From a virus, in IMG/VR virus record IMGVR_UViG_3300009093_000103, positions 1-30,101 of that record: DNA of 30,101 nt; one strand, 5' to 3'. Below the pieces are notes generated by a model. The model was not told the DNA's origin, did no database searches, and worked only from the letters and a program-made list of their open reading frames with translations. Made by a program: the position numbers and the translations under genes. Each line of letters begins with the position of its first letter. Within the stretch, counting starts at the first letter, position 1. Positions 3,633 through 28,907 of the stretch are shown one piece after another.

Positions 3633-3665
3633 GAAAAAGAGACGCCGCCGCTAAACGGCGTCTCT
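3633..3665 (-). terminator. Intrinsic terminator in front of terS
   Basis: 3638-3647 (AGAGACGCCG) pairs perfectly with 3656-3665 (CGGCGTCTCT): a 10-bp stem with an 8-nt loop. On the minus strand the stem is followed at once by TTTTTCC, so it should end leftward transcription coming from the lysis genes. The T-run ends 2 nt before the terS ATG. Confidence 0.85.
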
Positions 3666-4224: not shown

Positions 4225-4405
4225 TGATCGCCACGAACAACGCGGTAACAATCGCGGCGAAAACGCTGTCGATTGCCGTTTGCAGCTCGGGAGAAATGTT
4301 GACGTGAACCGCTGCACCAATCGCCGCAACAATGGGAATCCACGTTGACGGCTCTTTGTACTTGCGCAGCGCCAGATTGATAAGACCGCGAAACACCGCA
4401 TTCAT
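4052..4405 (-). CDS. Holin-like small membrane protein
   Basis: 117 residues. The first half has two likely membrane segments, around residues 19-36 ('STWIPIVAAIGAAVHV') and 44-60 ('SVFAAIVTALFVAI'), with 'ISPELQTAID' between them; that arrangement is common in phage holin-like proteins. The second half is a soluble, low-complexity tail rich in Gly, Ser, Pro and Ala. That tail is exactly the part read in another frame by the o-spanin candidate, so its composition may be a by-product. The start at 4405 has AAAGGAG eight bases upstream and overlaps the endolysin stop as ATGA. An i-spanin role is unlikely because no coiled coil is seen. Confidence 0.7.
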   Translation of the reverse strand: MNAVFRGLINLALRKYKEPSTWIPIVAAIGAAVHVNISPELQTAIDSVFAAIVTALFVAINEHGKPADSGGSADSVREPAPAAPGNGSSGADLQAGNRPSVRPADEPKPVRPGFGKY

Positions 4406-4878
4406 GTTTGCTCCTTTGTGATATCGCGCAAGCACAGCTCGCGCTCCGATTCGCGCCGCTTGACGAGGCCGGGCAAGACCTTGCCGCCCGCGTGTGTCCA
4501 TCGCGACAGTTCATTGCATGCGCCGACTCGATCGCCGGCAGCGAGCTTGCGCACGAGCGTCGACCCGCAGAACGCGGAGCCGCCGACGTTGAAAACGAAA
4601 TCCACGTACGCCGCGCGCTCGCCCACTGTCAGCGGCACACGCACGCACGCGTCTACAGCGTCGCTGGCGTCGGCGAGGTCCGCGGCCTTGTACTCGGCGC
4701 ACTGCTCGGGCGTCGCCGTGTCGCCGGGCTTGACGCCCTTCGTGTGGCCCTCGCAGATGGTGTACACGCCCGCCGTGTCTTGGTAGGCGGTCGGTACGTC
4801 GCCCTCGTAGTGCGCAGCCAGGGCGCCCGCGAGTGTGACCGCGAGCGCGAGTGCGCCTGTTACGACGCGGCCGTTCAT
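4402..4878 (-). CDS. SAR endolysin (lysozyme, glycoside hydrolase family 24, R21-type)
   Basis: 158-residue muramidase that cuts the peptidoglycan of the host. The N-terminus MNGRVVTGALALAVTLAGAL is a weakly hydrophobic signal-arrest-release segment with many Ala/Gly and no cleavage site. The catalytic triad is in the canonical spacing: Glu25, eight residues, Asp34, five residues, Thr40. 'AYVDFVFNVGGSAFCGSTLVRKLAAGD' and 'WTHAGGKVLPGLVKRRESER' are standard for the family. SAR endolysins are exported in an inactive membrane-tethered form and released when the membrane is depolarised. The start overlaps the holin stop as ATGA (4875-4878). Confidence 0.93.
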   Translation of the reverse strand: MNGRVVTGALALAVTLAGALAAHYEGDVPTAYQDTAGVYTICEGHTKGVKPGDTATPEQCAEYKAADLADASDAVDACVRVPLTVGERAAYVDFVFNVGGSAFCGSTLVRKLAAGDRVGACNELSRWTHAGGKVLPGLVKRRESERELCLRDITKEQT

Positions 4879-5111
4879 TGGTCGCCCCAAGGGTAGCGGT
4901 CGCGGTACTTGCGGCGGCCCCACCAACGGCGCTCATCGCGGCCAAACTTGTAGAAGCGCCAGCCTATTTGCGTGAGCAGGCAGAGCAGGTAGACGAACGT
5001 CAGCCAGTTGAGCAGTTCCGGCAAGGTCATGCCGAACACGTGCGAGGCAGCGTAAACACCTACCGGCGGCGCGGCCTTCGCTGTGTCAACGACTATTTGA
5101 TGCTGGTCCAT
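4875..5111 (-). CDS. Holin / pinholin-type membrane protein
   Basis: 78 residues: a polar start (MDQHQIVVDTAKAAPPVGVY), one moderately hydrophobic stretch 'ASHVFGMTLPELLN', a strong membrane helix 'WLTFVYLLCLLTQIGWRFY' (about residues 40-58), and a basic tail ending 'RRKYRDRYPWGDQ'. 'AAPPVGVYAASHVFGM-LPELLNWLTFVYLL' is the pattern of holins paired with R-type endolysins in many proteobacterial phages. The endolysin follows with a 4-bp overlap. Because the partner is a SAR endolysin, a membrane-depolarising pinholin role is possible. Confidence 0.82.
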   Translation of the reverse strand: MDQHQIVVDTAKAAPPVGVYAASHVFGMTLPELLNWLTFVYLLCLLTQIGWRFYKFGRDERRWWGRRKYRDRYPWGDQ

Positions 5112-5322
5112 GCTTCGTTTTTCCCCTGCGTAGGTTTGCTGTCGCTTTCGTGTCGCGCCACATTTGGACACTTAGCCGTCCGTTGGTAACGCGAAAATTC
5201 ATCTTGTGCACAAGGCCGCAGTCGCAACACGCGAGCTTGACGTTGCGGCGCGGCTCCAATACGTACCAAGTGCCGCCTTCGACGTGCGTGTATCGCCGGC
5301 CGTTGGCGCTCCTGGGCTTCAT
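5086..5322 (-). CDS. Small conserved phage protein with CxxC motif
   Basis: 78 residues, strongly basic. 'VEGGTWYVLEPRRNVKLACCDCGLVHKMNFRV' contains a Cys-Cys-Asp-Cys-Gly knuckle followed by His, as in half of a zinc ribbon. The rest is 'LSVQMWRDTKATANLRRGK'. I have seen this shape in many phage small genes but know no function. It begins with ATG at 5322, which overlaps the preceding stop as ATGA, and its end runs 26 bp into the holin gene. Confidence 0.8.
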   Translation of the reverse strand: MKPRSANGRRYTHVEGGTWYVLEPRRNVKLACCDCGLVHKMNFRVTNGRLSVQMWRDTKATANLRRGKTKHGPASNSR

Positions 5323-6700: not shown

Positions 6701-7273
6701 TTACTTCGCGCCGACAGCGACGCAACGCATATCGTTTGGACCGAAGTCGACGGCCGGGCACTGGAAACACTCGCCCGCGTTCGTCTGAATCAGCGGCACA
6801 AGCTCGAAGTGCTGCGGCGTCACTCCCTCGAACGGCGAGCCCGGATCGAAAGCGATATCGGCAGCGAGCGAGCTACACGTCTTGCCGTCCGTGTGGAACG
6901 TGATCGAGCCGACCTTGACCGGCGGACCGGAATCGCCCGAGTCGCCGAACGCTCGCGAACTGAGGTACAGGCTGCCGCTGGTCGGCGCGTCGCCGTGCCA
7001 CGCGACTTGCGTTGCGAACCATACCGGCAGACCGTTGGCCGGCGCGCCCGCGTAGTACGTCACGAATGCGCCAAAGTCGCCGCCGTCATGCGTGTACGGC
7101 AGAACGTCGAAGCCGGCGCCGGACTGCGACGGGTCGAACCAGTTACCGCCGTGCGCCGCCTGGAAGGGCGCGAAATCGCCTTCGGCCGAGTGTACGGGCG
7201 TTGCGAACAGAGCGCAGGCGACGTACAGCGCCGTTGCGACGAAAAAAGCGAGGAAACCGTAGCCGCGTTTCAT
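6701..7273 (-). CDS. Exported protein with 'W-F-x-P-x-x-S-G-x-G-F' motif
   Basis: 190 residues. MKRGYGFLAFFVATALYVAC and the following residues to 'TPVHSA' form a standard Sec signal peptide, with cleavage probably after HSA. The mature part contains 'GGNWFDPSQSGAGFDVLPY' and 'FGAFVTYYAGAPANGLPVWF', a beta-rich pattern I associate with repeat modules in secreted proteins of Xanthomonadales. At the end are paired cysteines ('GECFQCPAVDF...DMRCVAV'). The ATG at 7273 was chosen because AAAGGAG lies upstream of it. It has a long structured leader (7311-7385). An exported host-modifying or cell-surface protein inserted among late genes is plausible; function is unknown. Confidence 0.8.
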   Translation of the reverse strand: MKRGYGFLAFFVATALYVACALFATPVHSAEGDFAPFQAAHGGNWFDPSQSGAGFDVLPYTHDGGDFGAFVTYYAGAPANGLPVWFATQVAWHGDAPTSGSLYLSSRAFGDSGDSGPPVKVGSITFHTDGKTCSSLAADIAFDPGSPFEGVTPQHFELVPLIQTNAGECFQCPAVDFGPNDMRCVAVGAK

Positions 7274-7310
7274 GGTATACAATGCTCCTTTGTGGGCGTT
7301 GTGGATAAAG

Positions 7311-7385
7311 CCGCGGCGCCGTGGCCTTCGCTGCGTCGTGTGGAGACGGGCACGCCGGGCGATAGCGCCGAGTGCGGCGCCGCGG
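7311..7385 (-). promoter_or_regulatory. Structured leader RNA (three-way junction fold)
   Basis: Arms 7311-7320 (CCGCGGCGCC) and 7376-7385 (GGCGCCGCGG) are perfectly complementary over 10 bp. On the minus-strand transcript the loop can form a second hairpin, GCAC-TC-GGCG-CTAT-CGCC-CG-GCGTGC, and a third, CGTC-TCCACAC-GACG. It ends 38 nt before the ATG at 7273. Seen directly; the pairing is by hand and untested. Confidence 0.5.
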
Positions 7386-7401
7386 ACAGGACCGAAGGGA
7401 A

Positions 7402-7419
7402 TTAGCTGGTGCGCTTCAT
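7402..7419 (-). other. Five-codon leader mini-ORF (MKRTS)
   Basis: ATG AAG CGC ACC AGC TAA, preceded by GGGAGATTCGCACC, a well-spaced Shine-Dalgarno. It lies in the leader upstream of the structured element and the exported-protein gene. It may be a translated leader peptide or chance. Confidence 0.3.
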
Positions 7420-7489
7420 GGTGCGAATCTCCCGACGCGCCGCCCGGATCGGAGCGGCCACTATTCGGAATGCACCTTGCCTGCGAACT

Positions 7490-7523
7490 GTCCCGTATTT
7501 AATGCAAAACACGGGACTGTTAA
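7490..7523 (-). promoter_or_regulatory. Inverted repeat with weak promoter match upstream of the lysis/late operon
   Basis: 7490-7496 (GTCCCGT) and 7511-7517 (ACGGGAC) form perfect 7-bp arms around an AT-rich 14-nt centre. On the minus strand TTAACA (7518-7523) followed 15 nt later by TTAAAT could be a weak -35/-10 pair. The site comes just after a terminator on the same strand, where a new transcription unit should begin. Confidence 0.35.
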
Positions 7524-7529
7524 GGCATG

Positions 7530-7553
7530 AAAAACCCCGCAAGGTGCGGGGTT
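7530..7553 (-). terminator. Intrinsic terminator
   Basis: 7533-7540 (AACCCCGC) pairs with 7546-7553 (GCGGGGTT) around a 5-nt loop; on the minus strand TTT follows the stem directly, extending the TT of the stem to a run of five T. It ends leftward transcription coming from the small-gene train (7707-11363). Confidence 0.85.
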
Positions 7554-7706
7554 CGCCGATCTTTCCCGGCCGTCACGTCTCCGCACACGCTGCGGTACTG
7601 CCTTACGCCTTGCGGCGCGTCGCGGCTGTCGGCCGCGTCCCTCACCTGACCTCGACGAGCGAGCGGGAATCGAACCCGCCTGACCGTGCGGCGCCTGGGC
7701 GCCGAG
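7554..7706 (-). ncRNA. Candidate structured RNA with tRNA T-arm-like hairpin
   Basis: There is no reading frame here, but a chain of hairpins lies between the stop codon at 7707 and the terminator. These are CGGCGC-CTGG-GCGCCG (7689-7704), GCGGG-AATCGAA-CCCGC (7663-7679) and GCGGC-TGTCG-GCCGC (7622-7636). The middle one, on the minus strand, reads GCGGG-TTCGATT-CCCGC, a perfect tRNA T-arm with the conserved TTCGATT loop. No matching acceptor or anticodon arm was found, so it is not a normal tRNA. It may be a phage ncRNA, a tRNA relic, or only a structured 3' UTR. Confidence 0.35.
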
Positions 7707-7982
7707 TTACTTGCGCCGCGAGTGCCGGCGCTGTGGAAAGCATGCGGCCAGCTCACGCGCAGCCTGGGCGGCGTTGTCGCACGCGTCGGCACTGCGCAGA
7801 CACGCGCAAATCACGTCCTTGGCGCTCGACTGCATGCGATCCATAAGCCGCTGCAACATCGCCGTGTGATCCGCGTCGAGCAGCACGTACAGCGCTTTGC
7901 CGCCAGAGTCGAGCACGGCCTCGCGCGCGGCTGCAGCGGTAGCGCGACGCGTGATCTGCGTTTGTGTTGGTGCCTTGTTCAT
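7707..7982 (-). CDS. Small phage protein, unknown
   Basis: 91 residues. MNKAPTQTQITRRATAAAAR, then 'VLDSGGKALYVLLDADHTAMLQRLMDRMQSSAKDVICACLRSADA' and a basic tail. The middle segment looks like a compact helical domain able to bind or sense a small partner, but I recognise no family. The start overlaps the preceding stop as ATGA (7979-7982). It is the last gene of its transcription unit before the structured region and terminator. Confidence 0.72.
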   Translation of the reverse strand: MNKAPTQTQITRRATAAAAREAVLDSGGKALYVLLDADHTAMLQRLMDRMQSSAKDVICACLRSADACDNAAQAARELAACFPQRRHSRRK

Positions 7983-8503
7983 GTCGTCGCCTTAGTCGGG
8001 AATTCTTTTTGCCAGCGCGCGCGAGCTTTCGTTACATCATTCTTGTCTGCCCAATGCGACCGGCCGAACGTATCCCACACGCCTATGTGCGTGAACGCGT
8101 GGCGCAAAATGCAGTCTTCGGTAAACGGATAAGCGAACGTTGCCTTCTGTCCTACCTCGACGATTCTCGGCGACTGACTCGTTAGCGGACAATTCCAATC
8201 GGGCATAGGAATCGCGCGCTTAACTCTGCGCACAAGCCGCCGCCACAACGTCGCCTCTTTGGTCTGCGGAAATTCGATAGTTACTGACCCAGGACCAAGG
8301 TTTATAACTGTCACCAAAAAGAATTGTGTACGGTCCGGTATGCCTGGAATGTTTAACACGCTCATGATTCCGCAAGACACGCGGACACGAGCGCGAAAAA
8401 CTACGTCGCGGTATATGTTCCAGCCGAGCGAAAACGCGGACAGCACAGCAGACAAAATACTGACGGCCAGTGCGCTGAACGCAATTATCGTTTCGACCTT
8501 CAT
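7979..8503 (-). CDS. Membrane-anchored protein, unknown
   Basis: 174 residues. One N-terminal membrane helix, about residues 5-30 (starting MKVETIIAFSALAVSILSAV), then a predicted periplasmic or cytoplasmic beta-rich domain: 'RVRVSCGIMSVLN', 'TQFFLVTVINLGPGSVTIEF', 'PRIVEVGQKATFAYPF'. The phrase 'VTVINLGPGSVTI' resembles domains of phage and bacterial envelope proteins that are otherwise unknown. Its base composition is a little lower in GC than its neighbours, suggesting a later insertion. The ATG at 8503 follows the stop of the next upstream gene by 12 nt. Confidence 0.75.
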   Translation of the reverse strand: MKVETIIAFSALAVSILSAVLSAFSLGWNIYRDVVFRARVRVSCGIMSVLNIPGIPDRTQFFLVTVINLGPGSVTIEFPQTKEATLWRRLVRRVKRAIPMPDWNCPLTSQSPRIVEVGQKATFAYPFTEDCILRHAFTHIGVWDTFGRSHWADKNDVTKARARWQKEFPTKATT

Positions 8504-8515
8504 GTTAATTCCCCG

Positions 8516-8887
8516 TCACTCAAAGCCGCTAGTGTATACAAAGTCGCCGCATCGGTACTCGTAACCTATCGTCGTGTCGTCGGTCGGCGTCGCATTGATG
8601 AAAACGCAATCGCCGCTCTTGTCGATCAAGCCGAACGAACCATCGAAGCTAAACACAACGAGGTCAGACGGCAGGCCCGTCGCCGGCTGCGCTGTCGGCT
8701 TCCCGCCGAGCTGTATGTATTGATCGTAGCAGTACGTGCCGAAGTAGTCGGGGTCGTTCACTACAACCCAACAGCCGAAGTAGAACACTACGCGGTCCGG
8801 CATGTCGACGCGAATTGAATCTTGGTACACCTGGGCGCGCGCGATCGAGCAGCACGCGAGCAGCAGCACGCACAAAATCCGTTTCAT
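8516..8887 (-). CDS. Exported protein ending in 'SGFE'
   Basis: 123 residues. MKRILCVLLLACCSIARA is a clear Sec signal peptide with AxA cleavage before QVYQ. The mature part has three paired cysteines ('YFGCWVVV', 'FGTYCYDQY', 'GDCVFIN', 'YRCGDF') and ends 'FVYTSGFE'. A C-terminal '(D/N/S)GFE' tail is something I associate with many secreted proteins of Xanthomonadales. The gene starts at an ATG overlapping the previous stop (ATGA, 8884-8887). Function unknown; a secreted or surface conversion factor is possible. Confidence 0.78.
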   Translation of the reverse strand: MKRILCVLLLACCSIARAQVYQDSIRVDMPDRVVFYFGCWVVVNDPDYFGTYCYDQYIQLGGKPTAQPATGLPSDLVVFSFDGSFGLIDKSGDCVFINATPTDDTTIGYEYRCGDFVYTSGFE

Positions 8888-9375
8888 GGTTTCGCCCCCT
8901 TGGCTTTCAAAACCTCGTGCAGCTTCCCCATTGCGTTGAACATCACAGCGCAAAGCGCCGTTTCCTCGTCTTCGGAAGCCGGCAGCCCGCGGTGTAGTTT
9001 CCACACGTCGAACGCATGGCGCAATAGGCTCTTTACGTAGGACTCGTGCGGGATTCCCTTTTGCCAGTTGTCGCCTGCACGGACCGAGCCATCGGCCATG
9101 CGTTGCTTGCCGTGCATGTACTGCGCGAACCGATCCAGAACCGCGGGCGAAAAATACGCCTCGTAGTCTAGTTTGCTGTCGTCGAGGTCGCGTGTTGCGC
9201 CAGTGCCAAACGTGCGCACCAGCGGACGAACAGCGCCCGGCGCGACATTGGCGGATGCGTCAGGCGCAAGCGCGCCGTCGCGACGCTGCGGCCAGTTTGG
9301 GCACGCTCCGCAGCCGGCGCCATCGGTCGCGGCGCAATTTGGACAATACCAATCTTCCTGTAAACGTGCGTTCAT
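8884..9375 (-). CDS. dATP/dGTP diphosphohydrolase N-terminal-domain protein (DUF5664-like)
   Basis: 163 residues. An N-terminal zinc knuckle 'WYCPNCAATDGAGCGACPN' is followed by 'GATRDLDDSKLDYEAYFSP', 'RFAQYMHGKQRMADGSVRAG', 'DNWQKGIPHESYVKSLLRHA' and 'DVWKLHRG...ALCAVMFNAMGKLHE'. This is the pattern of the phage family PF18909 (DUF5664), whose best-known members hydrolyse dATP or dGTP; MazZ of Z-genome cyanophage S-2L belongs to the same group. Most members have no proven activity. ATGA overlap with the exported protein. No purZ or DNA polymerase is seen in this window. Confidence 0.82.
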   Translation of the reverse strand: MNARLQEDWYCPNCAATDGAGCGACPNWPQRRDGALAPDASANVAPGAVRPLVRTFGTGATRDLDDSKLDYEAYFSPAVLDRFAQYMHGKQRMADGSVRAGDNWQKGIPHESYVKSLLRHAFDVWKLHRGLPASEDEETALCAVMFNAMGKLHEVLKAKGAKP

Positions 9376-9575
9376 TCTCTGCCCTCGTGCAGTCGTTGAA
9401 TTTCTCGCCACTGCCAGCGCGATTGCTCGCGGCGGCCGGCTACGTCTTTCCATGACCCATACGCCTGCGCCTGGGTCGAGCCCATGCCGACCGAGTGCCC
9501 GTGCACGCAGTACCAGCGCGAGCCGATCCGCGCTAGGTGCGGCACGTCACGACGGCCGCGCAGGCGCGAACGCAT
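9372..9575 (-). CDS. Small basic phage protein, unknown
   Basis: 67 residues, starting MRSRLRGRRDVPHLARIG, then 'SRWYCVHGHSVGMGSTQAQA' and 'YGSWKDVAGRREQSRWQWRE'. The 'W-Y-C-V-H-G-H-S-V-G-M-G-S-T' core is shared by many small phage genes of unknown role. The ATG at 9575 overlaps the previous TGA as TGATG; a GTG at 9578 is less likely. It ends overlapping the next start by 4 bp. Confidence 0.75.
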   Translation of the reverse strand: MRSRLRGRRDVPHLARIGSRWYCVHGHSVGMGSTQAQAYGSWKDVAGRREQSRWQWREIQRLHEGRE

Positions 9576-9724
9576 CACGCGGCGCGCTTGAACAGCGCAC
9601 GCGCTCGTGCGAGCAGGCCCGGCGCCGGTCGCGTCGCAGGTGCCGGCTTCGGCAGCGGCGTTGCGTAGCGCGGGTCCGTGAGCAGCGCGTGACGAATTGC
9701 GCGGTTGAGTGCGTCTTGTTTCAT
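9575..9724 (-). CDS. 49-residue small protein
   Basis: Too short for routine gene calls, but it is framed at both ends: the ATG at 9724 overlaps the preceding stop as ATGA, and its stop overlaps the next ATG as TGATG. Sequence begins MKQDALNRAIRHALLTDPRY, then a Pro/Ala linker and a basic amphipathic tail 'LLARARALFKRAA'. The tail could bind membrane or nucleic acid. No family is recognised. Confidence 0.65.
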   Translation of the reverse strand: MKQDALNRAIRHALLTDPRYATPLPKPAPATRPAPGLLARARALFKRAA

Positions 9725-9918
9725 AGTCCCGAGTCCCGAAACGTGTTTATTTTGTGGACGTACGGCACGTAGATGTTTTCCGGCGGCCGCTCGCTGAACA
9801 CCTGGGCGCCGTCAATCGGCGCTTGCACGCCGCGATATACATACATGCGCACGTCCGCAACCATGGTGTAGCGGCCGGTGTACTCCGCGGCCGCGCCGTC
9901 GTAAAAAATTCCGATCAC
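9721..9918 (-). CDS. 65-residue small protein, unknown
   Basis: Starts at a GTG (9918) that overlaps the preceding stop as GTGA; a longer frame to 9936 is possible. Sequence begins MIGIFYDGAAAEYTGRYTMV, then 'DVRMYVYRGVQAPIDGAQVF', and ends 'IYVPYVHKINTFRDSGL'. It is rich in Tyr and beta-forming residues. No family is recognised. Confidence 0.68.
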   Translation of the reverse strand: MIGIFYDGAAAEYTGRYTMVADVRMYVYRGVQAPIDGAQVFSERPPENIYVPYVHKINTFRDSGL

Positions 9919-10226
9919 GACGCGCGAGCCCCGCACGAGTACACAACGTCGCCCGTATCGTCGTCTTGCTGCGCATTGATGCTCGCTTGCAAGCCTTGGC
10001 GCGCCAGCTCGATCGAGCGACGACGGATGCGCAGGCGGCCGTGATTGCTATGGATCGCGCACCAAAACGTCACCTGCTGATTGCCTAGCAGCTCGTCTCG
10101 CTGCGTAACTGCAGCGCTCAGCGTGTCAACGTCGCGCAACAGCGATGCTTGTTGCTCGCGTAGCTGGCGAATCGTGCGCCATGGGCGCAGGAAGGTTGCG
10201 GCGCGGCGCAAGTGTTTGCGGATCAT
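9915..10226 (-). CDS. Small coiled-coil protein, unknown
   Basis: 103 residues. The N-terminal half (residues 8-48; 'WRTIRQLREQQASLLRDVD', 'TLSAAVTQRDELLGNQQ') is a heptad-rich helix likely to form a coiled coil. The C-terminal half is basic, 'GRLRIRRRSIELARQGLQA', then acidic. ATG at 10226 overlaps the preceding stop (ATGA). Function unknown. Confidence 0.72.
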   Translation of the reverse strand: MIRKHLRRAATFLRPWRTIRQLREQQASLLRDVDTLSAAVTQRDELLGNQQVTFWCAIHSNHGRLRIRRRSIELARQGLQASINAQQDDDTGDVVYSCGARAS

Positions 10227-10474
10227 GCTGGCTCCGATTGTTGGATCGTTACAAAGAATTCGGACGCGGACGCGAGCACGTGCCCGCTGTAGCCGCAGTC
10301 AATGCGCGAGTGCTTGCCCGGCGTTCCGGGTTTCCAGCACCAGCGCCACATAAGGCCGTAGACAGCCGGGCCGCCTGGGAACGTGCCGGCGCTCGTGACG
10401 GTGCGCCAGCCGTGCGAAGTCTCGACGACGTGACCCGGACGCAGGTCCGTGCACGGAATGCGGCGCGTGTTCAC
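10223..10474 (-). CDS. Small beta-rich protein, unknown
   Basis: 83 residues. I choose the GTG at 10474 because it overlaps the preceding stop as GTGA, the rule of this gene train; the longer frame to 10492 would overlap the small upstream gene. Sequence: MNTRRIPCTDLRPGHVVETS, then 'HGWRTVTSAGTFPGGPAVYG', 'WCWKPGTPGKHSRIDCGYSG' and 'HVLASASEFFVTI'. The pattern 'DLRPGHVV...GWRTVTS' resembles small SH3-like or KOW-like beta barrels found in phage proteins. Confidence 0.7.
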   Translation of the reverse strand: MNTRRIPCTDLRPGHVVETSHGWRTVTSAGTFPGGPAVYGLMWRWCWKPGTPGKHSRIDCGYSGHVLASASEFFVTIQQSEPA

Positions 10475-10563
10475 GGCGGCGACTGCATGCACGCGCAGAC
10501 GACGAGCGTCAGCAGGCTAAGGCCGACGCCAACCCAAAAGGCTCGATCGCGTAGTAACGTCAT
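10471..10563 (-). CDS. 30-residue membrane or lipoprotein-like micro-protein
   Basis: ATG at 10563 with AAGG eleven bases upstream; the stop overlaps the next GTG as GTGA. Residues 9-25 are hydrophobic ('FWVGVGLSLLTLVVCAC') after a charged start MTLLRDRA, and the protein ends MQSPP. The end of the helix, V-C-A-C, is a borderline lipobox. It is the first gene after the palindromic promoter at 10573-10600. Too small for a family call. Confidence 0.55.
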   Translation of the reverse strand: MTLLRDRAFWVGVGLSLLTLVVCACMQSPP

Positions 10564-10572
10564 GTAGTCGAC

Positions 10573-10600
10573 CTTATATCTAGATATAACGCCGCGTCAA
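10573..10600 (-). promoter_or_regulatory. Sigma70-type promoter with palindromic operator, copy 1
   Basis: On the minus strand TTGACG (10595-10600), 16-nt spacer, TATAAG (10573-10578). The spacer and -10 are covered by the perfect 16-bp palindrome TTATATCTAGATATAA (10574-10589). The -35 contains the TGA stop codon of the gene at 10597-10776. It directs leftward transcription into the 10563 gene and the train beyond. Confidence 0.75.
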
Positions 10601-10776
10601 GTGCCGGCAACCCATTGCGCCGTATGGTTCCGCCAGTTGTGGCGAATCAGGCGCACCATGCGGGCGCGCTGCTCGGGCGTCGAGTCGTCCCAACACGCGC
10701 GAGCGTCACGCAGAAACGCGCCGACCTTGTACATGGTCCGCACGCGGTGCAACGCGGTTGTGCGCGTCGCCTTCAC
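10597..10776 (-). CDS. 59-residue small protein, unknown
   Basis: GTG start at 10776 overlapping the preceding stop as GTGA. Sequence starts MKATRTTALHRVRTMYKVGA, then 'FLRDARACWDDSTPEQRARM' and 'VRLIRHNWRNHTAQWVAGT'. It is basic and probably all-helical, with the 'S-T-P-E-Q-R-A-R-M' turn common in small DNA-binding phage proteins. Its stop codon is built into the -35 of the promoter at 10573-10600. Confidence 0.68.
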   Translation of the reverse strand: MKATRTTALHRVRTMYKVGAFLRDARACWDDSTPEQRARMVRLIRHNWRNHTAQWVAGT

Positions 10777-11363
10777 GCGTGCGCCTCGTGCGCGAACGAC
10801 GACCGCAGCGGGTCATGCGGGTCCGTGCTGCCCAGGTGGATAACGGCCGCGGCCGTGTTGCTGTGCTTTGTGAGCCGGTCGCTACGCTTGCGCGCGGTCT
10901 GGTAAATCAGGTCGCGCAGGTCGCAGCCTTGAATGACAGCGGACCACGCCACGCCGTTGCAGCGGCCGGCCTTGAAGTCGTCCGCGGTCGGGCGTTCTAT
11001 ACCCTGCAAGCCAACCCAATTGCGAGCCCACAAAGCGGCGATGGCGCGCTCGATCAGCGCGGGCGAGTAGTCGCGTTCGCAGAAAATGTACTTGGCGCCG
11101 AACGAAACCGGCTTGCCGTTGTACATGCTGCGATTGTAGTGCGTGCTGTCCGTCATGCCGTCGAACGTCGCACCCTCGAAGCGGCTCGCGACTTCCTCGA
11201 CCTGGGCCGCGTTCGGGCCATCGGTCCAGCGTACGTTTACGGATGCGCCGCCGCTGTAGACGTGCGAGCGAACGCCAAACTTCACGCCGGGAAACGCTTC
11301 CTTGAGCGCTTGGCGGATCAGCTTGGCGGTTTCTGCGCAGGTGAGGTAGTCGCGGGTCGTCAT
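10773..11363 (-). CDS. Protein with LPD29-type (large polyvalent protein-associated) domain
   Basis: 196 residues. 'DYLTCAETAKLIRQALKEAF', 'PGVKFGVRSHVYSGGASVNV', 'RWTDGPNAAQVEEVASRFEG', 'FDGMTDSTHYN' and 'GAKYIFCERDYS' together form the pattern of LPD29, a domain found in large polyvalent proteins and as stand-alone phage or plasmid genes. Its biochemical role is not known to me. SD AGGACG precedes the ATG at 11363, and the second palindromic promoter lies 35-63 bp upstream. It is the first gene of that transcription unit. Confidence 0.78.
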   Translation of the reverse strand: MTTRDYLTCAETAKLIRQALKEAFPGVKFGVRSHVYSGGASVNVRWTDGPNAAQVEEVASRFEGATFDGMTDSTHYNRSMYNGKPVSFGAKYIFCERDYSPALIERAIAALWARNWVGLQGIERPTADDFKAGRCNGVAWSAVIQGCDLRDLIYQTARKRSDRLTKHSNTAAAVIHLGSTDPHDPLRSSFAHEAHA

Positions 11364-11397
11364 GGCGTTTCGTCCTAGTCGGTTGACTGTGACGCTA

Positions 11398-11426
11398 GTT
11401 TATATCTAGATATAAACGTATGTCAA
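11398..11426 (-). promoter_or_regulatory. Sigma70-type promoter with palindromic operator, copy 2
   Basis: On the minus strand a perfect TTGACA (11421-11426), 16-nt spacer and TATAAA (11399-11404). GTTTATATCTAGATATAAAC (11398-11417) is a perfect 20-bp palindrome covering spacer and -10, in the same register as copy 1 at 10573-10600. The -35 contains the stop codon of the Mor-like gene. Confidence 0.85.
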
Positions 11427-11761
11427 GGGTTTTTGTGTAAACGATTGGCAAGTGCCTGCGTTTCAAAATCTAGCCGCATTTTGGCGATAATCCGCTGACC
11501 CTGGGTCTTGGACAGCCCGAGCCGCGCCGACGCCTGACGGATTGGCACGTCGCCGAACACTACCGCAGCGTATAAACGTTCGTTGCGGTCCTTGATCTTG
11601 GACCGATCGCCCGGAAAGTAGATATGTTCGCCGCGGAACGTGTCGCAGAGAATCTTAACGGCATCGTTTGCAGACTGTAGCGCCTGCTCGTGCGTTAGAC
11701 CCATGCTCACGTTTACACCAAAAAGCACGTTAGCAAACTCCTGTAATACTTTAGACTTCAT
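11423..11761 (-). CDS. Mor/C-family transcription activator
   Basis: 112 residues. The C-terminal part 'RNERLYAAVVFGDVPIRQASARLGLSKTQGQRIIAKMRL' (about residues 60-100) is the helix-turn-helix of the Mor family (Mu Mor and C activators of middle and late promoters). The N-terminal 'GLTHEQALQSANDAVKILCDTFRGEHIYFP' fits the Mor dimerisation domain. The ATG at 11761 overlaps the gene upstream by 11 bp. The palindromic promoter starts at its own stop codon, so this protein could control, or be unrelated to, that site. A role in switching on late leftward transcription is the natural guess. Confidence 0.82.
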   Translation of the reverse strand: MKSKVLQEFANVLFGVNVSMGLTHEQALQSANDAVKILCDTFRGEHIYFPGDRSKIKDRNERLYAAVVFGDVPIRQASARLGLSKTQGQRIIAKMRLDFETQALANRLHKNP

Positions 11762-12008
11762 GTGCAATCCCCGTAGCTAATGTCAAAGCCGCTTCAAAAT
11801 TTATACGTGCGCCGTCCCTGAACTGCTCTGCGGCAGTTTCAAAGGCGAACGCTTCATGCAGGTTCCCCGACGCGCGTAACGCTGTCACGATTTCATCGCA
11901 CGCGGCGGCTTGCGTGACGTGACAGTCAGCGACGAGTTTCACAAAAGGCGCAATGCGTCTTTGCGTACTGGTTGGCAAAGCACGAGGAACAATTACAGGA
12001 ATTTTCAT
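11751..12008 (-). CDS. Small helical protein, unknown
   Basis: 85 residues. MKIPVIVPRALPTSTQRRIA, then 'PFVKLVADCHVTQAAACDEIVTALRA' and 'AFETAAEQFRDGARINFEAALTLATG'. Mostly helical; no family recognised. It lies between RusA (3-nt gap) and the Mor-like gene (11-bp overlap), clearly in one operon. Confidence 0.7.
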   Translation of the reverse strand: MKIPVIVPRALPTSTQRRIAPFVKLVADCHVTQAAACDEIVTALRASGNLHEAFAFETAAEQFRDGARINFEAALTLATGIAHEV

Positions 12009-12011
12009 ACG

Positions 12012-12413
12012 TTAATTCAGAAACGTGAATGTTATTGACGTTTTTTCTAACTTTTCGACGAACAGCGTCACGCTGCCGCCCTCGATAGACTCGGCAACCT
12101 CGTTGAGCTGCGCGCGTATCTGCCTGTCGTCGTGCCACACGCCGGCATGCGTGAGCGCGTCGAGCAGAGCCTTGTTGCCGTTGTCTTGGTCCGGGTCGAC
12201 GCCGCCGCGCTTGCGCTCTGGCGGGTTGAGGATCACGCGCACGGCCAGGGCGCCCGCCTGGAACGGCGCGAACGTCCGCCCGTCGAGCTGCGCGAGCGCG
12301 TTAGCCACGGCGCGCCGGTAAGCCTTGCCCTTCGGCTTGAGGTACACGTGATGCCCGGTCCGGCCGTAGTAGTCGTTAACTGATGGCGGGTAAGGTAGGG
12401 TCAGTGCGAGCAT
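12012..12413 (-). CDS. rusA: RusA-type Holliday junction resolvase
   Basis: 133 residues, normal length. The signature is complete: 'LTLPYPPSVNDYYGRTG' at residues 4-20, then 'PDQDNGNKALLDALTHAGVWHDDRQI' with Asp75, Asp77, Lys81 and Asp95/96 as the catalytic metal-binding set. RusA dimers resolve Holliday junctions or branched phage DNA before packaging. It follows an AT-rich gap after the primase gene. ATG at 12413. Confidence 0.95.
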   Translation of the reverse strand: MLALTLPYPPSVNDYYGRTGHHVYLKPKGKAYRRAVANALAQLDGRTFAPFQAGALAVRVILNPPERKRGGVDPDQDNGNKALLDALTHAGVWHDDRQIRAQLNEVAESIEGGSVTLFVEKLEKTSITFTFLN

Positions 12414-12569
12414 TGAATATCGCCTACATTCTTGGTCAATTAGCTGACGGGTTGTCTTCGTTTATAACCGTTGTAGCACTAGGGCTGCAGCATTTTTAGA
12501 TACATAAATATATATGTGTATATCTATAATACTTCCAGAGCTTCCCGGCCTACCCTACCCTAGTCCGAT
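12414..12569. other. AT-rich intergenic segment
   Basis: This 156-bp gap holds no convincing gene. It contains a very AT-rich stretch (12496-12532), including TACATAAATATATATGTGTA and GTATATCTATAATAC (12518-12532). The latter shares TATATCTA with the palindromic operators. TACCCTACCCTAG (12551-12563) resembles TACCCTACTCTAG at 16281-16293. It could hold a promoter for rusA or a replication origin; neither is shown. Confidence 0.35.
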
Positions 12570-12677
12570 TTACACACACATGCCGTTTTGTCTGCGAATT
12601 GCCTCTAGCCCTACTGCCACAAGGGTTATATTCGCGTTTCGCAATTCATTTCCTGTCGGCGCATTAGCCGCCCTCAT
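12570..12677 (-). CDS. Possible 35-residue small protein
   Basis: ATG at 12677 lies inside the last codons of the primase gene (14-bp overlap). Sequence MRAANAPTGNELRNANITLV, then 'AVGLEAIRRQNGMCV'. The 'TG-x-E-L-R-x-A' start resembles the beginning of small phage replication-module proteins, but this one is very short, so it may be a truncated remnant. Alternatives in other frames are shorter still. Confidence 0.35.
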   Translation of the reverse strand: MRAANAPTGNELRNANITLVAVGLEAIRRQNGMCV

Positions 12678-14970
12678 GGTCGACCACGAGCACGAACGCG
12701 TCGCGCTTCCGCCCGCGCTTCCCGTCTGACGGCGGAAGCCGTGCCACGAGGTCACGCGCGAGCAGCGAATCAAGCACGCTCACCCATTCCCGCGGGCTCA
12801 AGTCGCGCAGCACGCGGGATACGTCGCACAGCTCTTTGATTGTCATACCGCGCTCGGCAGCGAGCGCGCCTTTGCGGGCGTTGTTCGTCAGAGCTGCAAC
12901 AACGATGCCGCACCAGCGGCTAAACTTGCCGGTGCTCATGTGCTCACGTACGGCCGCGATGGTCTGCGCTGTATAGAACCGCACGTAGTCAATCGCCCAT
13001 TCAGCATGCCGGGCCTGCACGCCGGGTTCTAATGGGTTATCCGATCCGGCCAGGATCAGCGCGAGCCGTAGCGCCTTCTCCCTACTCCGTCCCTGCAGCT
13101 CGGCTAGTCCCTCACGCTCTAGAGTGTTCGCGGCCGCGATTAGTTCGCGCTCGTACGCTTTGAACAGCGCGAGCGCGTCGGGTGCGATCGTGACCGGCAG
13201 CGCGTCGGGTATCAGGTCCGCGCCTAACTCGACGCCGGCCAGATTGCCGCGGCCCTGTCGCGTCGCCTTGCACCAATCCAGAACCGTTGCCGGCGTTTCA
13301 AAAATTGCCGCGGTGTCGTTCGACTCCATTCGTCCTAGATTTGTTTCGACGATCAGCAACCGCGACAGAAAACCGCCCTCTATGGCGTCTTCGGTTAGCG
13401 ACTCGTAAAAACTCTTAGGCGTGCTCATGCCTAGAATTGAAAGCGCCGGCCGATACACGATTTTCTGCGCAGTGTTGCTTTTCCTGCTCGCGGGTAGCCC
13501 GAGTGTCGACCGTGCAAGCGGACGCATTGCGCCGTCGAGCTGGCCCCATGCGCTCTTTAACTGCTCGATCGCCTGCCGCTTGTGGAAATTGCCGGCGGCC
13601 TGCGAGTTTTTCAGCATGGAGCCGAATTCGTCGATAATCGCAATGTGCGCCGGCTTGTCGAGCAGTTCGGAAAATATCGCGCTGTCGCTGGTGTAACCGC
13701 TCGGCCCGAGCAATTGCGACATGCCGCAGTGCTCTAACGCTCGCTCTACAACCTTGCGGCCGTATTCCTTGCCGCAGCCGGCTTGCCCGACCGCGAGGAA
13801 GTACAGCGATGTATAATTGTTCAATTGTGTAACGTAGCGCCGGCCCATGACGACGGAGCCGAACGCGAGCGCCGTTTGTACGGCGAACTGCGGCTGACAC
13901 TTCGGCGCCGTCTTGTTCGTCTCGTCGACAAGATCGCCCAGGGCGCCCGATAGCTTGAGCAGGTGCGACGGCACATTGCCGAACGTGACCGCCTTCGGCT
14001 TCGCGATCCGCTCGACTGCGATCGGCTCGGGCGGCGGCAGCGCGGCGTCGCCTTTCCATCCGCGATCCTTGGCCCATGCGAAAATGCTTTCGACGTTCAA
14101 CCCGCCCGCGCTGCGAAACGTCGGCCATTTTCGCTCGCAGTCTCCGTGCTTATACTTCGCGCTCGATTGCGCCCAGGTGTCCCACAGCTCGAACGCCTCG
14201 GGCGCGTCGGTCGAGTGCAACGCCTGCCCTACTGCGATCCATGTTGCATAGTCGTCGGCGTCGAGCGCTGCCAGTGCTCCGCGCAGGTCCGCAACACGCG
14301 CCGGGTCGAGATAGCCAACCGCTGCAGGCGCCGGCACGAGGATGCCTACAAGGTTGCCTCGCCTGGGCGCGATCGGATCGAGCAGCCATGGCGGCGGGTC
14401 CGCGATCGGTGCACCGTTCAAAGGATCGGCGACGCCTTCCCACGCGTACGCCTTGCCGCTGCTGTGCATGGATGGCTCGACCACGATCAGCTTACCGTTA
14501 CTGAGCGCGTCGAGCCCTTTACCCGGCGATTTGATCCGCTGGCCTACGTCGCGAAATACGTAGTGCGTTCCGCCGCCGCCAGTGATCGCGCTCGCTGTTT
14601 CCGGCAGCGGCCCGTATCGTTGTATAATTTGCTGCAATGTATCGTCGCCGCCGTTGCGCGGGTCGACGTCGAGCACAACAACGCCGGACGCTTCGCCCAG
14701 GGCGATGCCGATATTTAGCCGCGGCTCCCGTTCGTACCAGCTCCGCACCGTCGCACCGTCTTTGCTCGCCGAGTGCGTGCCGTTCGGTGCGAAGTGATGC
14801 GGATGCTTGCCGGGCGTGCGGCAATCGCCAGCGGCGCCGCACGAGCAGCGGCCCTGGTCGATCCAATGCAACGGAACGACGGACCAGCCGAGCCCGACGT
14901 ACTTTAACGCGGCGTCTAAACGCGCGTTAGCCGCGGTCTGCGACTTCGAGGTTAACCAAACTGGCTGCAT
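12664..14970 (-). CDS. Bifunctional primase-polymerase / helicase replication protein
   Basis: 768 residues. Residues 15-200 are a Prim-Pol domain (PF09250-type): 'ALKYVGLGWSVVPLHWIDQG', 'GKHPHHFAPNGTH', catalytic 'VVVLDVDP' (Asp101, Asp103) and 'GGGGTHYVFR'. Residues 230-305 fit a PriCT linker ('DADDYATWIAVGQALHS', 'ELWDTWAQSS'). Residues 350-600 form a P-loop ATPase with 'GQAGCGKE' (395-402) and 'IAIIDEFGS' (Walker B 445-448). A basic C-terminus ending in a winged-helix-like part follows. It primes and unwinds phage DNA, and is probably the key replication initiator. It starts 3 nt after the DksA-like stop. Confidence 0.92.
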   Translation of the reverse strand: MQPVWLTSKSQTAANARLDAALKYVGLGWSVVPLHWIDQGRCSCGAAGDCRTPGKHPHHFAPNGTHSASKDGATVRSWYEREPRLNIGIALGEASGVVVLDVDPRNGGDDTLQQIIQRYGPLPETASAITGGGGTHYVFRDVGQRIKSPGKGLDALSNGKLIVVEPSMHSSGKAYAWEGVADPLNGAPIADPPPWLLDPIAPRRGNLVGILVPAPAAVGYLDPARVADLRGALAALDADDYATWIAVGQALHSTDAPEAFELWDTWAQSSAKYKHGDCERKWPTFRSAGGLNVESIFAWAKDRGWKGDAALPPPEPIAVERIAKPKAVTFGNVPSHLLKLSGALGDLVDETNKTAPKCQPQFAVQTALAFGSVVMGRRYVTQLNNYTSLYFLAVGQAGCGKEYGRKVVERALEHCGMSQLLGPSGYTSDSAIFSELLDKPAHIAIIDEFGSMLKNSQAAGNFHKRQAIEQLKSAWGQLDGAMRPLARSTLGLPASRKSNTAQKIVYRPALSILGMSTPKSFYESLTEDAIEGGFLSRLLIVETNLGRMESNDTAAIFETPATVLDWCKATRQGRGNLAGVELGADLIPDALPVTIAPDALALFKAYERELIAAANTLEREGLAELQGRSREKALRLALILAGSDNPLEPGVQARHAEWAIDYVRFYTAQTIAAVREHMSTGKFSRWCGIVVAALTNNARKGALAAERGMTIKELCDVSRVLRDLSPREWVSVLDSLLARDLVARLPPSDGKRGRKRDAFVLVVDHEGG

Positions 14971-14973
14971 GCG

Positions 14974-15186
14974 TCAGACTGGCCGACGCATCATGCGTTC
15001 GCGCGCTTCCCGTTGCTCGGCGTGAGGTATGCACTCGCGTGCGCCGTAGAGCTGGCGCAGTTCAGTAATAGCAACGCCGCACACTTCGCAGTGCGCGGCG
15101 CCTCGTGGCCGTTGCAGGGCATTGCGGATTGCGGCGTCGCGGTGCCGCTGTTCCAGCTCTTGCGCCCGGTCGATTTCGTCACTCAT
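14974..15186 (-). CDS. DksA/TraR-like zinc-finger protein
   Basis: 70 residues. 'MSDEIDRAQELEQRHRDAAI' is the helical start seen in TraR-type proteins; 'CEVCGVAITELRQLYGARECIPHAEQRE' gives Cys-x-x-Cys, 17 residues, Cys-x-x-His, a zinc site. TraR-like proteins bind the secondary channel of RNA polymerase and change promoter choice without ppGpp. Strong SD AAGGGGAG. A palindrome-like CTTTGGTATACAAAG (15216-15230) lies upstream. Second gene of the left early operon. Confidence 0.85.
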   Translation of the reverse strand: MSDEIDRAQELEQRHRDAAIRNALQRPRGAAHCEVCGVAITELRQLYGARECIPHAEQREARERMMRRPV

Positions 15187-15258
15187 TGCGACTCCCCTTG
15201 CAAACTTCTACAAACTTTGGTATACAAAGCGGCCCTACCTTTTGGGCGCACGCAAGTG

Positions 15259-15474
15259 TTAGGACGAACCCAACAGACTGCGCAAGGAAACGCGCTTACC
15301 GGCAGCCAGCCAGACGGCGCGGGCCTTTCCGCGCGGTACTCCATGGCGCACCCAATAGCTAAGGTTTTGCTGGCTAAACGCACCGTTACTGCGGCGCGAA
15401 AGCTCGGATTGACCGCCGGCCCGAGCAACGGCTCGGCGAATAGCGGCACGGCTGCGGATAGCTCGGAACAGCAT
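15259..15474 (-). CDS. Cro/YdaS-like helix-turn-helix regulator
   Basis: 71 residues. 'IRRAVARAGGQSELSRRSNG', 'FSQQNLSYWVRHGVPRGKAR' and 'AVWLAAGKRVSLRSL' together match the YdaS/Cro pattern (helix, G-G-Q-x-x-L, recognition helix, W-V-x-x-G-V-P). It is divergent from the CI gene with the perfect operator at 15498-15520 between them, so it occupies the cro position. SD AAGGGGAG nine bases before the ATG at 15474. It should repress the repressor and commit the phage to lysis. Confidence 0.85.
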   Translation of the reverse strand: MLFRAIRSRAAIRRAVARAGGQSELSRRSNGAFSQQNLSYWVRHGVPRGKARAVWLAAGKRVSLRSLLGSS

Positions 15475-15497
15475 GCGGTTGACTCCCCTTGTGGGTT

Positions 15498-15520
15498 GGT
15501 TACAAATTTAACTTGTAACC
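15498..15520. promoter_or_regulatory. CI/Cro operator, left site (perfect 8-bp arms)
   Basis: GGTTACAA - ATTTAAC - TTGTAACC. It lies between the divergent cro-like and cI-like starts, 24 bp upstream of the former. Shares TACAA-N7-TTGTA with the sites at 16639 and 16697. Confidence 0.85.
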
Positions 15521-15548
15521 CTACAGCAAAGACATTTGCGGCGCAAGC

Positions 15549-15565
15549 TGCAAAACTTGTTTGTA
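15549..15565. promoter_or_regulatory. CI/Cro operator, second left site
   Basis: TGCAA - AACTTGT - TTGTA: nine of ten arm bases fit the TACAA-N7-TTGTA rule. Its last base is the A of the repressor's ATG, so the site overlaps the translation (and perhaps transcription) start. Confidence 0.6.
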
Positions 15566-16293
15566 TGCAAACGCTTGGCGAAGCCGTGAAGGAATTGCGC
15601 GAACAGCACGGCTGGAACCAGTCGGAGCTTGCGCGCCGGTCTAGCCGGCCTGGGCACAAAGTGCACCCGCAGAATATCCAGCAGCTAGAAGCCGGCGACG
15701 TTCAGCACCCGCGCTACCTGGGCAACCTCGCCGAAGCCTTCGGCATGACGATTGACGAGCTTTTCGCCTACCCGCGCCTAAGCGTGACGGCGCGCAAGGA
15801 ACGGCCGCGCGGTCCGTCGTCGGCGCTGCGCCCTATTCTCGTGTGGGAAAACGCAGCCGATTTGCCGCCCGAGGCATTTGTAGAGCTGCCGCGCATTTCG
15901 TTGCGGCTGTCAGGCGGCAAGGGCGGACCTGATCGCGAAGACGCCGAGCGCCACGATATAGGGCAAGCGTTTCGCGCTGACTTCGCCGCGCGCATGAAAT
16001 GGAAACCAAACACGCACTACAGCATGGTATGCGAGGGTCACTCTATGGAACCGACCATTAGCCACCGTGCGCCCGTCGTGATCGACATAACGCAAAAGCA
16101 CATAAAGAGCGGGCAGATTTACGCAATCATTATCGACAACGAGCCCATGCTAAAGCGCGTCGACAAACTGCCCGGCAACAAGTTTCGCATTCGCAGCGAT
16201 AACACGTCGAGCCGTGAATATGATGCGTACGAGCTGCCGGCGGATCAGGTCGACGTGATCGGCCGCGCTGTGTGGACCGCTACCCTACTCTAG
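15565..16293 (+). CDS. CI-type repressor (XRE helix-turn-helix + S24/LexA-like peptidase domain)
   Basis: 242 residues. Residues 4-68 are the XRE DNA-binding domain ('LGEAVKELREQHGWNQSELA', 'NIQQLEAGDVQHP'). Residues 145-240 are the LexA-like domain with Ser160 ('CEGHSMEPTI') and Lys197 ('EPMLKRVDKL'), 37 residues apart as in LexA. I see no Ala-Gly or Cys-Gly pair in the linker, so self-cleavage is not certain. It maintains lysogeny by binding the TACAA-N7-TTGTA operators. The ATG at 15565 has no Shine-Dalgarno and sits in an operator, suggesting a leaderless message. It ends 4 bp into the lipoprotein gene (tail to tail). Confidence 0.93.
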   Translation: MQTLGEAVKELREQHGWNQSELARRSSRPGHKVHPQNIQQLEAGDVQHPRYLGNLAEAFGMTIDELFAYPRLSVTARKERPRGPSSALRPILVWENAADLPPEAFVELPRISLRLSGGKGGPDREDAERHDIGQAFRADFAARMKWKPNTHYSMVCEGHSMEPTISHRAPVVIDITQKHIKSGQIYAIIIDNEPMLKRVDKLPGNKFRIRSDNTSSREYDAYELPADQVDVIGRAVWTATLL

Positions 16294-16592
16294 CCGCATG
16301 CACCGATTAGCGCGCCAGTCGTGCGCGCTCGCTCGATCGCATTGGCCTGCGGATCATCTATAACCACGACAGTGCCCGACACGATGAACGCTCGCGGCCC
16401 CGTGTAGCCGCCTAGTTCGTTCTTAGCGTTCACAAAGCCGCAAAGTATACCTTTCTCGTCGCGCACGTTCGTAAACTGCGCGCTCGCCGGGTCTTTGAGC
16501 TTCGCCCGCACCAGCTCTAGCCGCCCGTCGTACTCGCTGCACCCGGCTAGCAGCACACAGGCGGCCGCCGTCACTACTCCCCAAAGGCGCAT
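16290..16592 (-). CDS. Small lipoprotein, probable lysogenic-conversion factor
   Basis: 100 residues. MRLWGVVTAAACVLLAGCSE is a lipoprotein signal with lipobox L-A-G-C and Cys18 as the modified residue. The mature part contains 'YDGRLELVRAKLKDPASAQF', 'TNVRDEKGILCGFVNAKNEL' and 'GGYTGPRAFIVSG', a conserved small-lipoprotein pattern in which 'KDP-x-S-A-x-F' is typical. It is transcribed against the repressor gene and away from the right early operon, a location typical of genes expressed in the lysogen, such as superinfection exclusion proteins. Function unproven. Confidence 0.82.
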   Translation of the reverse strand: MRLWGVVTAAACVLLAGCSEYDGRLELVRAKLKDPASAQFTNVRDEKGILCGFVNAKNELGGYTGPRAFIVSGTVVVIDDPQANAIERARTTGALIGACG

Positions 16593-16638: not shown

Positions 16639-16657
16639 CTACAAAAAAACCTTGTAG
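16639..16657. promoter_or_regulatory. CI operator, right site 1
   Basis: CTACAA - AAAAACC - TTGTAG: perfect 6-bp arms in the same TACAA-N7-TTGTA form. It lies between the divergent lipoprotein gene and the right early operon. Confidence 0.8.
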
Positions 16658-16689
16658 AACTGGCACTTACGACCTACGCAAAAAACTTG

Positions 16690-16718
16690 TTGACAGTTAC
16701 AAACTTTACTTGTAATTT
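16690..16718 (+). promoter_or_regulatory. Right early promoter overlapping CI operator (16697-16715)
   Basis: TTGACA (16690-16695) is a perfect -35. A -10 may be TGTAAT at 16711-16716 (15-nt spacer) or TAATTT at 16713-16718 (17-nt spacer). The operator TTACAA - ACTTTAC - TTGTAA (16697-16715) fills the spacer, so repressor binding would block RNA polymerase directly. It drives the plus-strand operon from 16762. Confidence 0.8.
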
Positions 16719-26859: not shown

Positions 26860-27137
26860 TCGAGGTTGCCGCAATCGTCGACAAGCTCGACGAGCTGCTA
26901 CAGGCGACGCGCGCGGGTGCAATCCCCGTGCGCGAGCGCTGGCTCGACGCTGCCGGCGTCGGTGCGATCCTGGGGCGCGAGCCGCGCTACGTGCTCGAAC
27001 GCCTCGCCTGCCGGCCGGACTTTCCCAAGCCGTTCCCTGACGGGCAACCGCGCTGGCTCGCTGGCGAGGTCATGGATTGGGCATTGGAGTACCGGCGCGA
27101 ATTCGAGAAGACCGGCCGCAAAAGGCGCGCTGCTTAG
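26856..27137 (+). CDS. AlpA/excisionase-like regulator
   Basis: 93 residues. GTG start overlapping the preceding stop as GTGA (26856-26859). 'VRERWLDAAGVGAILGREPR', 'YVLERLACRPDFPKPFPDGQ' and 'PRWLAGEVMDWALEYRREFE' form the winged-helix of the AlpA/MerR-like excisionase group. These proteins bend att DNA and direct the integrase towards excision, or switch integrase on. It is the last gene of the right early operon and the nearest regulator to the integrase; it meets the cargo operon tail to tail with 4 bp overlap. Confidence 0.82.
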   Translation: MIEVAAIVDKLDELLQATRAGAIPVRERWLDAAGVGAILGREPRYVLERLACRPDFPKPFPDGQPRWLAGEVMDWALEYRREFEKTGRKRRAA

Positions 27138-27604: not shown

Positions 27605-27627
27605 AGCACCCGAGCCTGTAGAAACGA

Positions 27628-28059: not shown

Positions 28060-28064
28060 AACGA

Positions 28065-28439: not shown

Positions 28440-28443
28440 CTTG

Positions 28444-28890: not shown

Positions 28891-28907
28891 GAGCGTCCCT
28901 TGTGTGA

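Follow-up and report, generated by a model that had tools for sequence, protein, structure and literature searches.

Twin palindromic dyads in predicted promoters around an LPD29 gene block of a soil temperate phage

Why does a GC-rich phage carry the same perfect palindrome twice, each time inside a predicted promoter, and which regulator would read it? The question is raised by a 30.1-kb IMG/VR virus fragment of a soil temperate phage with a GC content of 62% (hereafter the window, meaning the whole stretch of DNA analysed). Leftward from the immunity region, the gene order is Cro-like (YdaS-type), DksA-like, Prim-Pol primase, RusA, an 85-aa ORF (11751-12008), Mor-like, the predicted promoter P2, LPD29, a 59-aa ORF, the predicted promoter P1, small ORFs, a dATP/dGTP diphosphohydrolase-like gene, a DNA-repair-exonuclease-like metallophosphatase, holin, lysozyme, terminase and a Mu-type portal. 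On the rightward side, the gene of the CI-like S24 repressor is followed by a recombination/helicase block; the integrase lies at the far end and is encoded on the opposite strand.

Some further features of the fragment were observed. Holin and lysozyme genes are located upstream of the terminase genes (4402-5114), an uncommon position for a lysis module, and a perfect stem, AGAGACGCCG/CGGCGTCTCT, directly before the small terminase gene (3638-3665) may be an early/late terminator. The AT-rich gap between RusA and Prim-Pol (12453-12650) is a possible replication origin; an imperfect palindrome spans 12494-12529, and an element of about 30 bp is present, as judged by eye, in two inverted copies (CGTTTATAACCGTTGTAGCACTAGGG / CGAATATAACCCTTGTGGCAGTAGGG). 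This AT-rich imperfect palindrome has only TATATCTA in common with the dyad of P1 and P2 and was not counted as a third site. Adjoining the integrase, a block with 48-50% GC (27000-29000) stands out from the 62% GC phage and is likely recent cargo; it carries small ORFs on the minus strand, most of which match no family.

Twin dyads and the predicted promoters P1 and P2

According to a whole-window scan, the 16-mer TTATATCTAGATATAA, a perfect palindrome, is present in exact form at 10574-10589 and 11400-11415, and these two copies exhaust the matches in the window, even when three mismatches are allowed. At the second site, the dyad grows to the 20-bp GTTTATATCTAGATATAAAC; no other perfect palindrome of the window is as long. 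Both dyads are on the minus strand, TTGAC precedes each 16-mer by exactly 6 nt, and the dyads occupy the intergenic gaps before the LPD29 gene and directly after its two-gene block (Table 1). The TGA within TTGAC is the stop codon of the 112-codon Mor-like ORF at P2 and of the 59-codon ORF at P1. By simple estimates, the 16-mer would be expected 2.7e-7 times, and two sites would have TTGAC at equal distance and on the same side with a chance of about 5e-5; none of 100 dinucleotide shuffles contained the 16-mer. The first-pass annotation had described twin promoters sharing one palindromic operator in identical register, a second dyad extending to 20 bp, -35 elements that include the stop codon of the upstream gene, and an arrangement very unlikely to arise by chance, and this description is confirmed here at the level of the sequence.

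Table 1. Coordinates of the dyads, predicted promoter elements, genes and resident operators discussed in the text
Feature	Position	Strand	Remarks
P2 -35, TTGACA	11421..11426	-	Includes the Mor-like TGA stop (11423-11425)
P2 -10, TATAAA	11399..11404	-	16-nt spacer; alternative TAAACT at 11397-11402 with 18-nt spacer
Operator 2 (putative), GTTTATATCTAGATATAAAC	11398..11417	-	20-bp perfect palindrome over spacer and -10
P1 -35, TTGACG	10595..10600	-	Includes the stop of the 59-aa ORF
P1 -10, TATAAG	10573..10578	-	16-nt spacer
Operator 1 (putative), TTATATCTAGATATAA	10574..10589	-	16-bp perfect palindrome over spacer and -10
Mor-like protein, 112 aa	11423..11761	-	Directly upstream of P2; candidate reader
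LPD29-domain protein, 196 aa	10773..11363	-	First gene after P2; PF18847, E=4.4e-25; Shine-Dalgarno AGGACG
59-aa ORF	10597..10776	-	Second gene after P2; TGA stop inside P1 -35
30-aa hydrophobic ORF	10471..10563	-	First ORF after P1; stop overlaps next start
Small ORF, function not assigned	10223..10480	-	Follows the 30-aa ORF
91-aa protein	7707..7982	-	Ribbon-helix-helix-like pattern; further down the same train; weak candidate reader
Cro-like (YdaS-type) protein	15259..15474	-	PF15943, E=0.0018 (below cut-off); PHROG 35, E=2.5e-4
CI/Cro-type operator, TTACAAATTTAACTTGTAA	15500..15518	.	Between cro-like and cI genes; motif unlike the dyad
CI-like repressor	15566..16293	+	HTH_3 and S24 peptidase
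CI/Cro-type operator, CTACAAAAAAACCTTGTAG	16639..16657	.	TTACAA-N7-TTGTAA type
PL-type promoter, TTGACA-17-TAATTT	16690..16718	+	Nested operator TTACAAACTTTACTTGTAA (16697-16715)

Both P1 and P2 display near-consensus -35 and -10 elements at 16-18 nt, and at both the dyad lies over spacer and -10 with its centre near -14, that is, as a nested operator, a placement which, judged by sequence, fits repression. The -10 hexamers agree with the consensus at five of six positions, the important final T missing at both, and the spacers are 16 nt (alternatively 18 nt for P2), not 17; promoter scans favoured TTGACA-18-TAAACT for P2 over the 16-nt reading. With a predicted start near 11392, the P2 transcript would begin with an ordinary leader, about 29 nt long, in which the AGGACG Shine-Dalgarno precedes LPD29. 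The predicted P1 start, at about 10566, lies only about 3 nt ahead of the ATG at 10563, and the mRNA would be nearly leaderless; since the AAGG Shine-Dalgarno would then fall outside the transcript, it would be useful only to read-through RNA. This makes P1 the less secure of the two promoter predictions. Family searches with the 59-aa ORF in front of P1 gave no convincing match.

The resident CI/Cro-type operators of this phage have the form TTACAA-N7-TTGTAA, 19 bp in length, and are located at 15500, 16639 and 16697. The last of them is nested between the -35 and -10 of the PL-type promoter with the same geometry as at P1 and P2, but its sequence is different; upstream of this promoter, two more operator-like copies were observed, one at 16639-16657 and a degenerate one near 16674-16692. 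Agreement between the dyad and the resident operator is limited to the outer TTA/TAA letters, and the P1/P2 dyad does not have the motif of the sites flanking cI. This means that CI and Cro are poor candidate readers and that the dyad implies either a second regulator or an operator taken from a different immunity.

We consider it likely that P1 and P2 are a pair of repressible sigma-70 promoters around the LPD29 block, with one common operator and a phage-type reader, the twin dyads most likely serving a putative repressor as an on/off switch for both. The exact duplication of a perfect palindrome in 62% GC DNA, its identical register to TTGAC, the intergenic placement and the same nested geometry of the resident PL with its own operator all argue for this reading, as do the unrelated nested dyads in the promoters of unrelated LPD29 phages (see below); repressors are known to use operators placed within the core promoter (PMC9410906). 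The sequences themselves show the palindromes, their register, the distinct immunity operators and the recurrence in other phages, and from these we infer promoter activity, repression, timing and the kind of repressor. Within the long leftward early operon, P2 would drive the LPD29 gene and its partner, and P1 the small genes downstream; a dimeric repressor on the dyad would exclude RNA polymerase at each promoter, and because the same dyad covers spacer and -10 at both, they would be shut off together. This regulator is probably of phage type and differs in specificity from resident CI/Cro, so that P1 and P2 would be active without the main early promoter, from the moment the DNA enters the cell, or even in the prophage state, for as long as the regulator has not built up.

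Several points stand against this reading, among them the nearly leaderless P1 transcript and the -10 and spacer deviations given above. No cognate regulator was found, and no recognised repressor gene begins at either site; the part of the phage genome beyond this fragment could encode the regulator or contain additional sites. Among the train ORFs searched, none matched an HTH family, and the one weak RHH-like lead is the 91-aa protein: RHH-like by eye, it ranks first among 319 ORFs with a small RHH profile, though at E=0.55. It is at most a weak candidate for an RHH repressor, having no Pfam RHH family, PDB or fold support and a low-confidence model. The first-pass annotation had seen in the two sites a two-promoter regulon for the small-gene train; two promoters with one operator are supported by the statistics and by the unrelated LPD29 phages, and P1 and P2 are better described as flanking the LPD29 block than as such a general regulon.

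LPD29 loci in other phages

Homologues of LPD29 were found on 21 other viral contigs and on 20 genome contigs, the latter including Acidovorax, Caballeronia, Burkholderia, Pseudomonas and Cupriavidus, and the dyad of the window is present in none of these loci. Instead, many of them have the same anatomy with a different dyad; strong promoters of their own with unrelated nested dyads precede LPD29 in L042 (GTTGAGATAATCTCAAC, behind TTGACA), L046 (given as AGCCCGCGTCAAGCGGGCT, also as TTGACAGCCCGCGTCAAGCGGGCTTACAAT), L048 (TTTAGATTTACGCTAATCTAAA) and L070 (GTAGCAATTGCTAC). When core promoters are tested for inverted repeats, the combined P over the 22 promoter-bearing loci, several of which are related, is 3e-6; taken locus by locus, most LPD29 loci are not individually significant for the nested dyad, which counts against the preferred explanation.

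In L042, L045/L050/L051/L057, L047 and L049, a promoter with a dyad recurs in the same orientation just after LPD29, and the window, L042, L045, L047, L049, L050, L051 and L057 thus each have the same kind of promoter with its dyad before and after the gene. L042 also displays the overlap of a TGA stop with the -35 at both copies, the second being LPD29's own stop. In five phages (L042, L045, L047, L049 and L050), a copy of the phage's own repressor-type promoter was observed on either side of LPD29, and in L050 a third promoter copy is located at about +1000.

Copies of the respective dyad are also present at the repressor locus of L042, L050 and L070; in L070, they are found between cro and cI and ahead of LPD29, while L050 has five copies (at most one mismatch) around a YdaS-like gene and two downstream promoters, and one weaker copy elsewhere in the contig. 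In these three phages, the LPD29 operators thus appear, from their sequences, to be the phage's own immunity operators. Taken together, L042, L049, L050 and L070 have in common a nested-dyad promoter before LPD29, and in most also after it, but differ in the dyad sequences, which match the own repressor locus where this can be checked. The LPD29 domain itself is conserved, with 39-62% identity, while the dyads are unrelated across phages; LPD29 is therefore not the reader, and its role as its own repressor is ruled out. What appears new and noteworthy at the sequence level is that the bracketing of LPD29 by twin operators recurs in unrelated phages with unrelated dyads.

Candidate readers and comparable systems

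Relatives that carry the dyad itself are scarce. No near DNA match to 7000-16500 was found among 50,697 phage records, cloned relatives are lacking, and terminase and primase searches returned no close relatives offering a comparable copy of the P1/P2 region. The exact 16-mer is present in 33 stretches of viral contigs, most of them AT-rich, the sole in-register carrier being a near-identical contig (one mismatch in 13,220 bp); relaxed in-register scans yielded that contig and one AT-rich match which looks like chance. Across the viral and GTDB collections, no relative with the dyad was found beyond the near-identical contig. The search for the 16-mer in related phages, which the first-pass annotation had proposed, thus provided a near-identical carrier but no diverged relative to show selection on the dyad, a further point against the preferred explanation.

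Among the alternatives, a variant of the preferred explanation survives best and is possible, though on balance doubtful: the LPD29 cassette and its promoters would derive from a phage with this immunity operator, or the resident immunity region would have been swapped, the reader being the other phage's repressor and the promoters free of resident CI. It is consistent with the LPD29 operators of L042, L050 and L070, which equal the own immunity operator there, whereas those of the window differ from the resident one. No donor phage with the dyad was found in viral contigs or GTDB, however, and both copies are undecayed perfect palindromes, by which a current reader is slightly favoured.

Less likely is a role of the Mor-like protein, which would bind the dyad and either activate both promoters as in Mu or repress them. 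Its gene is adjacent, and its assignment to the Mor family relies on PF08765 (E=3.7e-5, just under the cut-off), on PHROG 532, late activator (1.3e-5), and on a predicted model whose nearest neighbours are Mu C and Mor (E 0.04-0.06). As in the Mu Mor/C promoters, a Mor-family protein is encoded next door and the element is a 16-bp dyad (PMC4390567). The Mor activator element is centred at -43.5 in place of a -35 (PMC4390567, PMC4287176), whereas P1 and P2 have a consensus -35 and a dyad centred near -14, over the -10; Mor-type activation is therefore disfavoured, and of the Mor-like binder considered in the first-pass annotation a repressor role is what is left. Moreover, a dyad at -43.5 would put the starts at about 11364, the LPD29 start codon, and about 10538, inside the 30-aa ORF. 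Searches for relatives of the Mor-like protein found none in phages, in plasmids or in 399 genomes from the order to which the Caballeronia match belongs, and among viral contigs none but the near-identical one.

That resident CI or the Cro-like protein binds the dyad as an ordinary immunity operator is improbable: the corresponding sites in L042, L050 and L070 fit, as far as can be told, but the resident operators described above do not, and this part of the earlier proposal is disfavoured. Accessory phage genes are often under host-read promoters, and a host factor had also been named as a possible binder. A host regulator reading P1 and P2 is nevertheless also improbable, as the full promoter TTGAC-N6-16-mer is absent in exact form from all 84,980 species genomes of the GTDB collection, and none was found at spacings of 5-7 in the 399 genomes of one order; these scans sought exact matches only and argue against a widespread host regulon using such promoters. 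Recombination, replication or packaging signals, roles which perfect palindromes can have, and mere chance are the least credible readings, given the fixed register to TTGAC, the placement before genes and the recurrence in other phages.

Several known systems resemble the preferred arrangement of two repressible promoters. The KorA operators of RP4 are short GTTTA...TAAAC palindromes at the -10 of several promoters, as is the P1/P2 palindrome; the dyad of the window is longer, with a central ATCTAGAT, no KorA homologue has been shown, and the Mor-like model has only weak local fold similarity to KorA. The C1 operators of phage P1 and the conserved inverted repeats of phiC31 are dispersed repressor operators of temperate phages. 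Likewise, in L5-type phages the sites of one repressor are repeated across the genome, most stoperators being outside promoters (PMC6550527). Several sites of one regulator over early genes, in LPD29 relatives including the immunity region, would be common to both, but the window has two sites only, both in promoters, palindromic and unlike the resident operator. In Aca-repressed anti-CRISPR promoters, one inverted repeat is always within the core promoter (PMC9410906), and by this definition P1 and P2, sigma-70 core promoters of small phage accessory genes with an internal inverted repeat, have the acr-aca layout; they differ in that no Aca/HTH gene was identified in the train, no known Acr is present and two promoters share one dyad. 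By analogy, P1 and P2 may work like the Aca- and L5-type layouts, but membership in either class is not claimed, since no cognate repressor was found.

Implications for LPD29 and its phages

LPD29 is a widespread protein with no assigned function, and solo domains of its class have been proposed to help in early phases of invasion (PMC5512222). That unrelated phages bracket it with operators of unrelated sequence suggests selection for early expression that is both strong and tightly regulated. The anatomy of LPD29 loci offers a sequence-only handle on each phage's repressor specificity, and in the case of the window it leads one to expect either another regulator or a mismatch of immunities. 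Rather speculatively, LPD29 might be a mobile cassette bounded by two operator-controlled promoters, here answering to a foreign immunity. If so, LPD29 would be on in its own lysogen and silenced in cells with another prophage, and through its operators an accessory gene, perhaps one with an anti-defence role, would be controlled by another phage.
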